Source: Nannobrachium achirus
Taxonomy: Eukaryota; Chordata; Actinopteri; Myctophiformes; Myctophidae
Assembly (NCBI GenBank): GCA_963921795.1
Contig: OY997653.1
Coordinates: 25,042,658 to 25,106,657 of the forward strand
Direction: 5' to 3'
DNA length: 64,000 bases
This document shows positions 4,093-64,000 of the stretch, piece after piece (position 1 is the stretch's first letter; each line of letters opens with the position of its first letter). Made by a program: the position numbers and the translations under genes. The notes beneath the pieces are model-generated. The model made no database searches. It saw nothing but the letters and a program-made list of their open reading frames with translations, and was not told the DNA's origin.

Positions 4093-5422
4093 CTAAACTT
4101 CCTCACCTCCATCCATTTCAGATTCTTCTCCCTCAGTTTCCTCCCGGATTAACTGAGGTTGCAAGTTACAAAGCCCTGCACAAATAGCTACGATGTCATC
4201 AACATGTTGTACCCTACCAGGGATTACATTACTCAAAATTTTAAAAGCCTTTAACCTCCTAATAGCTCTCTCCACATGAATTCGTGTAACTTCATGCTCA
4301 GGAAGTTCTTTACAGCCAGGTGTAAAGGCAAGCATGGCCAAAGTCACTCCTGGAGGCAAAAAATCTGTAATAGTGAACCCACGGTCTGCTAAAACTTGAT
4401 CACCAGGAAGCAGGTTGCCGATAAGACCGCTGTTCTTTGTGATAAAAGTATCACTGGCACTCCCACCAAACAATTTAGAAGCAAACATCACAAAACCATT
4501 GGGAGCAATGCAATAAAGGGCTTTGTATGTGTTGTGAGATTTGTAATTGCTATATGTTTGTGATCGCTTCATGTAGTTCTTTGGCCTCTGTACAAATATT
4601 TCAGTACAGCCTATGATGCATGCTGCTTTGGGATAATTTATACTGAAATTCTGAGGCCTTATTCTTTTCAGAGTATCTCTAGGCAACCAAGCAATTATCT
4701 TTTCATTCATAAACCTTGCTAGTATTGATCTCCAGACAGCAAATATATCACAGGCTGTGGTCCTACTTATTCCAAACCTTTTTCCCAAGTCTGTGAACAT
4801 CAAACTAAGACGGAGCCTCATTAGAACTAATAACAGTTGGTCATGCACTGCCAAATTGAAGGTCTTTGAGTGTGGGAGAAAAGCTGTGACAGCATACAAA
4901 AGCCACCAAAAACTGGCAATACCTATGCCTGTGAAAAACCTACAGTCACTGTCATCTAAATCATAGGCTGAGACTGATGGTGCAGGATCTGTTTGTGTTG
5001 CGCTGTCCTTTGTTGACTTTGTGGAATAGTATGAGAGATCCTCTTCTGCATGAGTAGGTTCAGCAGCACATCTGTTAACCTTCGAGGCGTTGACTGTAAG
5101 GGGTGCGAGACATCTTTTGGGCGGGGCACGGACAGATGTCACAATCCCCTGTGTAAAGAGACAGAAGAAGAAGAGAAAGAAATATGGCATTCATTTTCAA
5201 ACTGCATTTCTTGCTAGGCTGGCAGGTATTGTCTGGCAATCCCAGCATTCTCTGCAAGATCCCTGCCCCATCCCATAATGTTCCTTGCCCCACTGCCCCA
5301 GATATGAATATGCCAGGAAAAGAAATAAAACTTACAATATGATGATGTTTATATCCCATGTGCAATACTGGGTAGGGGTGCTCTTTGGTTGGTCTGCCAT
5401 CAATGAAATGTATTCCACACAC
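4093..5422 (-). pseudogene. PIF/Harbinger (ISL2EU-like) transposase, two exons, decayed
   Basis: DDE transposase relic with an N-terminal THAP-like zinc finger half. Exon 5422-5336 encodes VCGIHFIDGRPTKEHPYPVL, containing the C-x2-H half of the finger, with an AG acceptor and gtaag donor. It joins in phase to exon 5148-4093. That exon has a helix-turn-helix region (LGKRFGISRTTACDIF) and a DDE_Tnp_4 catalytic domain ending in an acidic tail. Numbering from the first Met upstream of the splice, the catalytic sites read IIGCTEIF (residue 194), LADRGF (Asp269) and HVERAIRRLK (Glu307). Relatives have Asp at the first site, so Gly194 breaks the catalytic triad. The exon for the first half of the zinc finger was not found upstream. 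The frame is open, so decay is recent or the protein is kept for a non-catalytic role. Confidence 0.75.
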
Positions 5423-5667
5423 CTTGAAAATAATAATACAATAGTACATAAGTTAACCCAACAATACACCCTTATCCATGATTAGGCTACATTACATTAA
5501 GCGTGCTACTGGTAGTGTTTCATGTTGACTCGACAATCGACATTGCTTTGCAATAACGTTAGCAAAAGGTTAGCTGACGTCCGATATGGACAGTGCCAGT
5601 GGCCAACTGACGTTAAACTAGGCTATCTAGGTAACCAGCTAACTAGGTTACCAGCCAGCTACGTTAA

Positions 5668-6555
5668 GGCTGCCAAGTCTCACGCTTTGAGCGTGAGAGT
5701 CACGCAATTTAACCTCTTCTCACGCCACACGCCACACATGCCATTTCTCACGCATTTTTACAGCCATCCCACCGACCTCTCCCGAAAGTTGCGGGGGTTT
5801 TCTCACTTGGTAAAAGTCGCACGGAGAATTCTAAGCGCAGTGAATGCAGCAGAGCTGCTCTGCTCCTCCACTCTCTCTCCCCTCTACACATACACACATG
5901 CAGGCGACACAGCGAGACGGAGAGCCCTACAGACGGCTGCGATGCTTTCTCGCTTTGATCTGCGGAGCCGGGGATCGCGCCGCCCCCGCGGTGGAGAAAC
6001 ACACTCGCTCCGGGACAAAACGCTGGGCGATATTTCACAAAGATGACCACAATCCAGCTCTTGCCTCCCGCGAGCGCATGCACGAAAGAGCCCACGCGCA
6101 ATAATTTCATGGGTTTAATACTATATCCACTTGTCTTGAACCCTAAAATCCCCATATTCTGAGGAGGACTTTAGAAGAGATAGGGCGGTTTGCACTAACA
6201 CTACCAACACTACTCTACTAGAGGGAAGAATACCAGTAGCCCAGTGGTTCTCAACCTGTGGGTCGGGACCCCCAGGGGGGGGGGGGTCCCCAAATTTTGT
6301 TCTGGTCATAATTTTGAAACTTGAACTGAATAAGGTGCTATTGGTTGACATTTTACTAATAAATGTATATTTATTGGTCATTCTTGTTACAAGTTTATTT
6401 CTACTTGTGCTGGTCACTCAGTTTGAATGCTTTATAAGCATGAGGTAGTGACTCCGTCTGCGCCAACCAACTTAAGCCTCACACGCCACGAAATCGCTCT
6501 AAATCGACGTTAAAAAGGCCTCACTCTTCAAAATTTCTGGAACTTGGCAGCCCTG
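5668..6555. mobile_element. hAT-type element with GGCTGCCAAGT ends
   Basis: Left end AAGGCTGCCAAGTCTCACGC is matched by ACTTGGCAGCCCT at the right. A CpG-rich interior (5930-6070) resembles a transposon promoter. A second hAT fragment starting CAGTGGTTCTCAACCTGTGG (6242 on) is inserted in it. No transposase frame is readable. Confidence 0.45.
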
Positions 6556-6679
6556 GCCTACAGTACACGTTAGGTGCCCACATTGAGAAATAAAATTCGT
6601 AGCGTTAGGCAATTATGAGATTCAATGTTGCAAAACATACATCTGCACATGTTGGATCGTCTCTGTTATAGTTCATTTT

Positions 6680-6792
6680 AGCCATAAATTATAACTTCCA
6701 GGAGAGGGTGCTAATATTCGGAGTCGGACGTTATGAGAGACATAACGTCCGAATATTAGCGCCCTCTCCTGGAAGTTATAATTTATGGCTAA
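6680..6792. repeat. Fold-back element, ~45-bp arms
   Basis: TAGCCATAAATTATAACTTC is mirrored by GAAGTTATAATTTATGGCTA. The loop holds a second inverted pair, CGGACGTTATG/CATAACGTCCG. Arms are nearly perfect. Confidence 0.8.
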
Positions 6793-7403
6793 GTTCATTT
6801 TATTAAATATTAAGCACAGCAGTAGCCTACCTGCGTTTACAGCTACTGCTGGTGTGCTTGATAATTAACAAAGAACAATCAATGAGAAGATCCAGTGAGT
6901 GTGGATGTTTATTTGTTATGTATCCTTACTACGAGTCGACCCTCCTGTCCTTGCCGGGGCTTTTGTTCCAGCAGGACTGCTACGAAGAGATTCAATTTTG
7001 TTAACCAAAACTCACCCTGCTGTTCTGAGTTGGAACAAAGTCCTTTCTGTTGATATTTTTCACCCACGTTTTCCTAACTTCTTGGTCCTCTGCGCGTCCA
7101 GGAAATCGGTGCAAACTGTATGGCAAAAGACAGGGGCATTCTTGGTGCAGTGTAGGCTTGTGTATTTCACATACTTTCTTCTTCCATTGTACGAGTTTCA
7201 CGCTATTGTTGAAACAGTTTATTACGGAACATGTCCATCCACTCGACATCATAAAAAAATATATTTGCAGAAAAAGAAAACAGAAAGGTCGTATTCCGTT
7301 GGCGAATTTCGTAAACAGTGGAAAGCTGCTGCTGCCTGCTTCTGCTGCGACACAAAGCATCAATGGCGGACGGGTACTTCCGGTCTGTTTGTTCGGATTA
7401 GTG

Positions 7404-7727
7404 TTAAAGGAGTAGTTCACCCCCAAAATGACTTTTTTTCTATTGATTACTCACACCATAGAGACTTGAGTTCAATGATATTTTTTGTTTTTTGTGGCAT
7501 TCCTAAGACAAAAAATTGATTAGAGTAAATTTACCCCATTGATTCCGGATGGGGACCCGAATCCATTTGGGTCCCCATCCGGAACGAATGGAGATACATT
7601 TATTGTAATCACATTTTTGCCTTAGTCAATGTGACAAAAAAAACTAAAAATATTATTGAACTCAAGTCTCCATGGGGTGAATACTCAATAGAAAAAAAAG
7701 TCATTTGGGGGTGAACTACTCCTTTAA
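7404..7727. mobile_element. TTAA-flanked MITE (Kolobok/piggyBac type)
   Basis: Begins TTAAAGGAGTAGTTCACCCC and ends GGGGTGAACTACTCCTTTAA. Inverted arms are about 95 bp, with a central palindrome GGATGGGGACCCGAAT/ATTTGGGTCCCCATCC near 7545-7583. TTAA at both outer edges fits a TTAA target duplication. Confidence 0.8.
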
Positions 7728-41345: not shown

Positions 41346-41545
41346 NNNNNNNNNNNNNNNNNNNNNNNNNNNNNNNNNNNNNNNNNNNNNNNNNNNNNNN
41401 NNNNNNNNNNNNNNNNNNNNNNNNNNNNNNNNNNNNNNNNNNNNNNNNNNNNNNNNNNNNNNNNNNNNNNNNNNNNNNNNNNNNNNNNNNNNNNNNNNNN
41501 NNNNNNNNNNNNNNNNNNNNNNNNNNNNNNNNNNNNNNNNNNNNN
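41346..41545. other. Assembly gap, 200 N
   Basis: Exactly 200 undetermined bases, the usual placeholder for a gap of unknown size. It lies between the SNX14 upstream region and the probable SYNCRIP 3' UTR. Confidence 1.
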
Positions 41546-60872: not shown

Positions 60873-61239
60873 ATTACTTGCTCATTACAAATTGTGTGTG
60901 AGATGCTCTATTTTGTCCACTAGAGGGCTCTGTGAGATTAGTCCACAGCACACACACAAGACAGGCGGTGCTCCATTCATAATACCTTTCAAACTTAACT
61001 ATTTCTCAACTGGCAGACAATGTCTCTTAATAATAACTTTGTTTATTGGATTTGAACTATGAAATGTTATTATTGTGTTTCCCCTGATAGATTCATTACA
61101 CTTGGAAGAAAGGTATAGCCTTCAAAAAGCCTAAAAATAAATGAATAAATAAACAAATGTTAAAATCAATTTATTACCCATTGTTTTTTTTGTTTTTTGA
61201 AGCGGTGGAAACCGCTTCCAATGAATGGCTTTGTGTGTA

Positions 61240-61425
61240 TCACGCCCATATATGGTCATCTCAGTCCAGAATGAACAGGCTTTTTCAAAAACAGAATGTC
61301 CGTTTAATTACCATATATGGTGATCTCAGTCCAGAATGAACAGGGTTTTTCAAAAACAGAATGTCCGTTACCTTATGTCCATATATGGTCACTCCAGGCC
61401 AGAATGAACAGGTTTTTCCTGTCCT
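61240..61425 (+). repeat. Three tandem units with CArG-like cores
   Basis: Three ~67-bp units, each with CCATATATGG followed by TCCAGAATGAACAGG or a variant. The first two add TTTTTCAAAAACAGAATGTC. Confidence 0.8.
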
Positions 61426-61523
61426 GTACATATATAGGCTTTATATGTCCTGTACATCTAGAATATGTGTGCGTTGTCCCTCCCGGTCAGATGAATGGAT
61501 ACTTTGAGGATTGGTCAAGCTTC

Positions 61524-61575
61524 ATAAAATAGATTAAAACACATACATTAAAAATGTATGTGTTTTAATCTATTT
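61524..61575. repeat. Palindrome, ~25-bp arms
   Basis: ATAGATTAAAACACATACAT is mirrored by ATGTATGTGTTTTAATCTAT across a 4-nt loop, about 450 bp upstream of the THAP-chromodomain start codon. Confidence 0.85.
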
Positions 61576-61879
61576 TATTTTTTAAACCTATTATACCAAC
61601 TGTCATACCAGCTCTCCAAATACATTCAGAATAGAAGTTTTATCTGTCCACCGCTTCAATTCGAACCGAGGTTTTTTTTTTTTTTTACAATATCTACTGC
61701 ATAGTACTGTGTTCTATCCGTCTGTCATTCAATGTTATATAGCATACATAAAGGTTTCCTGTGCAAATAAGCCGTAAAAGCTTACTAGGATCTCCTTTTA
61801 GTTGACCTTGTAGTACCGGTGATTTGTAGTTTTGTACTGTCATGAAACTGTACCTTTTCCTATGAAGTGAACACAGCGG

Positions 61880-62024
61880 AGCGCTCCCTAAACTCCGGTT
61901 CAGCCAATCAGAAGCTTCCGCGGGCGGGTCTTGTCTTACCCAGTTTTGTGCGCGCCACAGTCCACACTCTGGTCTGGGAGTCTCTGTTCAAAAGTACCGT
62001 GCTAAATAGATAAATAAGGCTATA
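61880..62024 (+). promoter_or_regulatory. Promoter of the THAP-chromodomain gene
   Basis: The 145 bp before the ATG contain a CCAAT box (AGCCAATCAG near 61905), a GC box (GCGGGCGGG near 61922) and a GCGCGC stretch near 61951. The start codon context is ATAATGG. This supports a TATA-less, housekeeping-type promoter. The transcription start was not determined. Confidence 0.5.
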
Positions 62025-63249
62025 ATGGTTCGTCATTGCGCAATTTGCGCTTACCCGGGTTGTGCTAATAGAATGACAACATCATGTACGAATCCGATTA
62101 GTTTCCATGGACTGCCTTTACAGTGTCCACAGACGTTGGAACTATGGCTCATTATTCTGCAAATAGACGTAAAAACACCAGCAGAAGAATTGAGGGCTAA
62201 AGACTTTAGAGTTTGCAGTGCTCATTTCGACGACGAAGACTACGTTCTTAGCACAACAAGAATGGAAGAAGAGGGAATAAAACCACTGAAGCTTTATCTG
62301 AAGCTAGATGCTGTTCCAAAAGCTGGTAAACACGAGGTAAATAATCATTCTTGATATAATGAGGTGTGTTCCTTTGGCAAATATAATAGAATATCCGGTG
62401 TTAGAGCTAGCAATTCCGGTTTGATTCATTCGCCTACAAAATAAAACCCCAGTAATTAATGCCACTGAAAAACAATGAATTTGCACATTACATGCACATT
62501 AAAAATATTAATTAAGCTTTTAAACAAAGTTATACAATAACAATTATGTTTATGTGTAAAAAATGTTTTAATAACAAAAGAATAATATATCTAAATAGAT
62601 AAATTCTGTTCACTGGAGTGCACACACACATTATTATTTTACCATGATAGATTTTTATCATGATAAACAATATTATTGTGTATCGTCCCATCCCTACCTG
62701 GTGACCTCTGACGCCCTCCTAATCATAGAGCTCCTAATACGTTAGCTGGCCATGTTTTTGCTACACACAACACCACTGACCACTTTCACCAAGTGTATTT
62801 TTTTAATTATTACTAAAGACCTATTACGCAGCTATAAACAACAAACCACTAAATGTGTGCGGATGGTTACAGAACTTTTATCATCAACCGGAGTTGCATG
62901 TTGCGTTGCATCACTCACGCAGAAACTATTTAAAATGTGGTTGTAATGTCGAACATTGCTAAACGTCTTTGGTATCTCTTTACTAGTTGGAGGAGAAGCC
63001 TCAGACTGCAGTGGCGGTGTGGGACTCGGATTCGGAGGGAGAAGAGGAGTGCCATCCATATAAACCCACATACTATCTACCTGCTAGGCCTACTATGGTT
63101 GTAGCGACCGTGAAGGAGGAGGAGGGGGAGGAGTCTCAGCCAGCAGTGACGGTGACAGTGGAGCAAGACCAGGAGGTGGAGAAGGTGCTGGATCGACTTG
63201 AGATGAATGGAAGGGTGAAGTACCTCCTCAAATGGAAAGGTTTCTCAGA
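62025..63249 (+). CDS. THAP zinc finger - chromodomain fusion protein (5' part of gene)
   Basis: Exon 1 (62025-62336) encodes 104 residues with a complete THAP domain: Cys8-x4-Cys13 (CAYPGC; Cys5 is an alternative ligand), ISFHGLP, Trp41, Cys64-x2-His67 (VCSAHF) and the closing AVP at 96-98. Its donor (gtaaat) is phase 0. After a 650-bp intron, exon 2 (62987-63249) starts in phase 0 with LEEKPQT, runs through an acidic linker (SDSEGEEE, KEEEGEE) and ends EVEKVLDRLEMNGRVKYLLK plus WKGFSE, the first half of an HP1/CBX1-3-5-type chromodomain. The GT donor falls after GFSE, a position I recall for HP1-family genes. The rest of the chromodomain lies beyond the window. Expected role: sequence-specific DNA binding joined to chromatin binding. 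I know no named gene with this layout. The joining of the two exons is inferred from phase and splice sites. Confidence 0.7.
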
Positions 63250-63331
63250 GTGAGTCCAACTCCAAGCCTCCTTTCTCCCAACGTGATAAACATTTTATTG
63301 CAATCGTCAGGTCGCAAGGTACTATGAACCC

Positions 63332-63921
63332 GATCCCCAAGTTATCATCCCATACATTGGGCACTAATCACTATCATCCCATACATTTGGGCCAGTTGGG
63401 CCCATCTACTCAACTAGTTGGGGCTATTTGGGGCTTATCAACACATAGCTATAATCGAATTGCTATCTTCCCTGAGTGGGAAGCGAACCCGGGTCCTGGT
63501 TTTAGTGGCCTACGTGCTCTACCTACTGAGCTACCGTACGGCTGGCCAACCGCCATTTTTTAGGGGGGTATTATCTTTGACAACGTGGATACTGGGGGAC
63601 GAAGATTTACTATTCTGTCCATAACGGCACATAACCCTAACCCTAACCCCAAACCTAACTCTAACCAATGTAGGACTAATCAGATGTAGGACACATTTCC
63701 ATTGTGGATCCTGTGGCGTGAGCAGCAGGGTCGGGTGGCTGTGAATTCAAAGCTCATGGTTTTGAATCCCACTCTGGGAATGTATTTTTATTTATTTTTT
63801 CTTCTTAGACCACATATTGAATCAGCCTTACAAATGGTTGATAAGCCCCAAATAGCCCCAACTAGTTGAGTAGATGGGCCCAACTGGCCCAAATGTATGG
63901 GATGATAACTTGGGGATCGGA
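63332..63921. mobile_element. Long inverted-repeat element with tRNA-like interior
   Basis: Arms of about 90-110 bp: GATCCCCAAGTTATCATCCC and GGGCCCATCTACTCAACTAG at the left are mirrored at 63833-63921. The left arm has an extra internal duplication (CTATCATCCCATACATT). Inside, a minus-strand tRNA-like SINE (box A TAGCTCAGTAGGTAGAG, box B GGGTTCGCTTCCC; about 63470-63545), a (CCCTAA)n stretch (63633-63650), and plus-strand GGTTTTGAATCCC at 63757. It lies in the intron after the chromodomain exon. Confidence 0.7.
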
Positions 63922-64000
63922 TGGGTGGTCAGTCAGTCAGTCCCTTCGTCAGTCCCTCCGGCTGTCCGTCACATCACATCAAACTTTTGTGCCTACTCTT

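Follow-up and report, generated by a model that had tools for sequence, protein, structure and literature searches.

Gene structure at the locus

Does a THAP zinc finger that lies ahead of half an HP1-like chromodomain belong to the same gene, and what would such a gene encode? The question was raised by a prediction made on a 64,000-nucleotide stretch of Nannobrachium achirus DNA (the window; C16:25042658-25106657), and we pursued it by searching the species' own 1.66-Gb assembly. Both predicted exons are present in the same phase. Exon 1 (62025..62336, + strand; 104 codons) encodes a THAP domain (Pfam THAP 48.3 bits; cut-off 23.9) and ends at a phase-0 donor, GAG/GTAAAT. A GT-AG intron (62337..62986, +) separates it from exon 2 (62987..63249, +; 87 codons plus 2 nt), which encodes an acidic linker and the first half of an HP1-type chromodomain between the acceptor ...TTACTAG/TTG and a phase-2 donor, TCAGA/GTGAGT. 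In a weight matrix built from consensus frequencies, the donors at 62337 and 63250 rank 22 and 54 among the 3643 GTs of the window and the acceptor at 62987 ranks 56 among its 3756 AGs, each being the best of its stretch. Exon 2 has no start codon of its own at its 5' end, and an in-frame TAG overlaps its acceptor. The sole N run of the window is at 41346-41545, which rules out an assembly gap between the two exons.

Intron 2 opens inside the window (63250..64000, +), where it holds a fold-back element (63330-63920) with arms of 71 and 32 nt and CCCTAA-like repeats between them. The second chromodomain half, expected from the original prediction to lie downstream, was found beyond the window about 1.5 kb 3' of exon 2, as exon 3 (C16:25107377-25107491, equivalent to L010:2720-2834; +). 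It is followed by an acidic exon 4 (C16:25108503-25108626, +) and by exon 5 (C16:25109185-25110041, +), which carries C2H2 fingers, an AT-hook-like motif (GRPRGRPKR) and the stop codon. Joined together, the five exons, whose phases are compatible and whose introns follow the GT-AG rule, form a single open frame of 556 aa with its own ATG and stop, in which a THAP domain (42.6 bits in Pfam), an acidic linker, a complete HP1-type chromodomain (53.6 bits), the C2H2 fingers (zf-C2H2, 49.4 bits) and the AT-hook-like motif follow one another. The gene model therefore places THAP and chromodomain in one protein, as had been proposed. We infer splicing as modelled, and are confident that the THAP exon, the chromodomain exons and the finger exon constitute one gene.

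A CCAAT box (61904) and a GC box (61922), together spanning 61904..61927 (+), lie 98-121 bp 5' of the start codon and appear promoter-like; the surrounding 61850-62000 has a GC content of 0.543 and a CpG o/e of 0.82, against 0.411 and 0.53 for the whole window. A 65-nt tandem repeat of 2.6 copies (61246-61437) also lies 5' of the gene, whose minus-strand neighbour is hnRNP Q-like. An Rfam scan gave no match at gathering scores. A transposon around the THAP exon was considered and set aside, as no flanking inverted repeats of at least 20 nt, the shortest detectable, occur within 61000-64000.

Paralogous loci

Exon 2 matches nine places in the genome: itself, five paralogs at 77-84% identity (four on C13, one on C16) and three more distant sequences at 42-50% identity (L018, L019 and L009). 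Six core loci are known, and the four that were modelled all read from ATG to stop over five exons uninterrupted, with phases 0, 2, 0, 1 and GT-AG sites; besides the 556 aa of the window copy, the models measure 561 (C13_14), 550 (C13_44a) and 573 aa (C13_44b). Six tandem C2H2 fingers are found by pattern in each of them, and both full models scanned with Pfam, the window copy and C13_14, match zf-C2H2 and zf-H2C2_2 (C13_14: THAP 48.0, Chromo 56.6, zf-C2H2 66.8 bits). By sequence, the window gene thus belongs to a small gene family of this genome. C13_44a has an intron 2 of about 10.8 kb and an extra, interrupted THAP between exons 1 and 2. Two loci lie outside the modelled set: C13_11 has core exons and fingers, lacks a good exon 2 acceptor and shows a repeat expansion in the charged tail of its exon 3 (L016 5532-6023), and at C16_19 two THAP exons precede a divided exon 2, and the finger exon is shortened.

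THAP frames lie 5' of the core on the same strand at five of the six loci, the sixth (C13_11) having a distant THAP alone (27% identity). Such an arrangement could also come about if THAP genes merely stood ahead of chromodomain-zinc finger genes to which they are not spliced, a reading favoured by the fact that the joining is read from genomic sequence rather than from RNA, and by THAP exons that are old and of differing types beside a core that is young (see below). However, at all four modelled loci a phase-0 donor faces a phase-0 acceptor on the same strand, exon 2 opens with L-(E/K/Q)-E-(K/E) directly at that acceptor, and the missing start codon of exon 2 likewise speaks against an independent gene. 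We regard separate neighbours as very unlikely and retain the single, five-exon gene.

An HP1-type chromodomain

Exon 2 alone reaches 19.9 bits against Pfam Chromo (positions 2-27 of 53), below the cut-off of 25.1 because it encodes only half of the domain. Its single-domain matches in the PDB, obtained with a query that ran one base beyond the donor, include CBX5 (8.3e-7) and CBX1 (1.3e-6), the top row (CBX5, 4.7e-9) incorporating a weak second stretch. The complete domain from exons 2 and 3 matches CBX5 at 3.7e-24, CBX1 at 1.3e-20 and CDYL at 3.1e-10; the CBX1/3/5 and HP1 rows score 55.7-88.7 bits and the next best, CDYL, 43.2, which identifies the domain as HP1-type.

Two ordinary HP1-like genes of the same genome (L018 and L019) have a phase-2 intron after WKG(F/Y)S, as does the window copy, which bears out the earlier suggestion that the exon end after WKGFSE is an HP1-family intron position. 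This common position suggests that the window gene family probably acquired a pair of HP1 exons by capture, again in line with what had been put forward. Chromodomains of retrotransposon integrases occur in fish and could in principle have supplied the domain instead; yet the HP1 rows are far above all others scored, in a comparison that had retroelement chromodomains outside it, and the intron is common to HP1 genes. We have rejected a retroviral origin, to which we give next to no chance. The third distant match (L009 1582-2055) is an HP1-like sequence in which the two chromodomain halves adjoin and a chromoshadow-like piece occurs; it is a possible retrocopy.

The likeness to the HP1 family (CBX1/CBX3/CBX5) thus extends over the complete chromodomain and the position and phase of its intron, whereas the window gene has a THAP domain in front and C2H2 fingers behind. 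A chromoshadow domain was not detected by Pfam in either of the two full models, in which C2H2 fingers occur instead.

The aromatic cage of HP1beta consists of Tyr21, Trp42 and Phe45, as given in PMC7465696. With the register taken from the CBX1 alignment, the window copy has the Trp and the Phe and is without the first aromatic, Tyr21. At the corresponding site (63170..63175, +) all five paralogs have Tyr-Val before VEKV (QDYVVEKV, including the cage Tyr) and the window copy is two residues shorter; two missing residues agree better with the paralog comparison than a pair of substitutions, Tyr by Gln and Val by Glu. The methyl-histone reading originally envisaged therefore remains credible for the paralogs, which keep the HP1beta cage residues, and is probably compromised in the window copy: the family could be able to read methyl-H3K9, while the window copy probably binds it weakly.

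The THAP domain

The hallmarks of a THAP domain are the C2CH ligands, conserved Pro, Trp and Phe residues, and the AVPTIF box. The window THAP retains the ligands (C8, C13, C64, H67) along with P31, W41 and F68, and half of the box, A96-V97-P98; it is a THAP domain by these features and differs from known THAP-domain proteins in being joined to an HP1 chromodomain and C2H2 fingers. It retains three of the 16 basic residues that THAP1 has in the aligned stretch, and its pI is 5.5. DNA binding by the THAP domain and the fingers is plausible. A single-sequence AlphaFold model of the exon (pLDDT 40.2) was set aside.

Other THAP-like sequences were seen in the window and elsewhere in the genome. 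A transposase is encoded on the minus strand at 4096-7450 (DDE_Tnp_4 138.7 bits, HTH_Tnp_4 54.2 bits), accompanied by a THAP first half that stays under the cut-off (7004-7450, 22.8 bits) and, by eye, a second half at 5078-5452 on the minus strand; this THAP and the one at 62 kb share a single match of 10 residues (E=2.7). Of the genome's 88 THAP matches, 33 are half-THAP pieces (approximately residues 7-49) on the + strand of one C14 stretch (58.43-62.08 Mb), a repeat cluster or large THAP gene; a 10-kb sample of it (L046) had no chromodomain exon.

Old THAP exons and a young core

At C13_14 (C13:14275643-14282458), four THAP frames stand in tandem ahead of one chromodomain-finger core; all four have an ATG near their start and a phase-0 donor (scores 8.1, 4.9, 7.8 and 7.8), suggesting variable THAP starts on a shared core. 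The layout at C13_14 and C16_19 looks like a set of putative alternative first exons. Protocadherin-type genes have variable first exons before a shared exon set, and the resemblance is one of layout only, known here from the genome alone.

Synonymous divergence separates the THAP exons into types, with a within-type dS of 0.21-0.24 (window copy and C13_44a), 0.32 (C13_14 and its neighbour) and 0.42 (C13_44b and C16_19), against 1.6-2.6 or saturation between types. Across the four modelled loci, dS is 0.03-0.11 for the chromodomain and 0.11-0.28 for the fingers. By these estimates the core is young and the THAP exons are old, of three types, so that either THAP starts were exchanged or cores were homogenised. 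Gene conversion among cores, as opposed to the joining of new THAP exons to duplicated cores, agrees with the adjacent C13_44a and C13_44b, whose cores are the most similar (dS 0.03 for the chromodomain, 0.11 for the fingers) and whose THAP types differ (dS 1.78). It sits less well with a similar core on another chromosome, that of the window copy, and with similarity that spans parts of the introns and downstream sequence. We give homogenisation a substantial chance, somewhat short of even.

The finger region evolves at a dN/dS of 0.50-0.67 in all six pairs, the THAP of the window copy against that of C13_44a at 0.83-0.92, and the C-terminal tail at 0.63-1.30. Selection is not strong: the ratios are only slightly under 1 and, for certain regions, about 1 or higher, so that relaxed constraint on the family is possible. 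Diversifying fingers were rejected, as the contact positions are no more variable than the rest (9 of 24 versus 22 of 60, p=1.0). The window copy, with its lost cage residue, shortened exon 3 and the THAP ratio just given, might be taken for a decaying paralog; its 556-aa frame is nevertheless complete, and its splice sites and THAP zinc ligands are all intact, which makes decay rather unlikely.

Relatives in other fishes

Three percid proteins, two from Sander lucioperca (P0001, P0002) and one from Perca fluviatilis (P0003), labelled Chromobox 1 or hypothetical, have the chromodomain in common with the window gene family. P0001 also shares the GSKRKK tail of exon 3 (score reached by 2 of 2000 shuffles) and matches C13_44b as a whole at E=5.9e-25, and the WDSDS linker of the window copy occurs in all three (3, 15 and 9 of 2000 shuffles, respectively, with exon 2 residues 1-36). 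They are annotated with neither THAP nor fingers, and may be truncated models of family members.

In three protein searches, a single one of 125 candidates passed E<=0.001, and at the looser threshold of E<=10 the other two yielded 3 of 265 and none of 11; the pairing of THAP and Chromo domains that was to be sought among proteins did not appear within their length limits of approximately 105-334 and 148-472 aa. These limits exclude relatives as long as the gene models (550-573 aa), and ordinary HP1 was missed within them too, so the negatives say little. A literature search, likewise a weak test that did not pair chromodomain with C2H2, found no description of THAP, HP1 chromodomain and C2H2 fingers in combination, and the portions available of PMC12062965, PMC10027918, PMC7776569, PMC7465696 and PMC11603059 contain no THAP-chromodomain protein.

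Proposed function

Reading frames, intron phases, splice sites and domain content, seen at the window locus and at three of its paralogs, make it likely that this is a host gene of five exons whose protein carries an N-terminal THAP finger and, after it, an HP1-type chromodomain, C2H2 fingers and a tail resembling an AT-hook. Its likely role is that of a sequence-guided chromatin regulator. In the mechanism that we infer, the THAP and C2H2 fingers would pick the DNA site, and the chromodomain would retain the protein on H3K9-methylated chromatin or favour such sites. Differing THAP first exons would give one chromodomain-finger core differing targets, and the window copy, lacking the first aromatic of the cage, would lean on its DNA-binding parts.

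By analogy, KRAB-ZNF/TRIM28/HP1 silencing and the FiNZ-ZNFs of fish also tie zinc fingers to heterochromatin machinery, whereas here the chromodomain is inside the finger protein itself. Ray-finned fish are reported, in PMC11603059, to be without TRIM28 and KRAB-ZNF. More tentatively, these HP1-chromodomain C2H2 proteins with exchangeable THAP starts might be fish-specific, built-in heterochromatin guides in that lineage. A single protein would combine two kinds of DNA-binding finger with an HP1 methyl-histone reader, coupling sequence directly to heterochromatin in animals reported to be without the KRAB/TRIM28 route. The THAP first exons, standing in tandem, hint at a means of switching targets.
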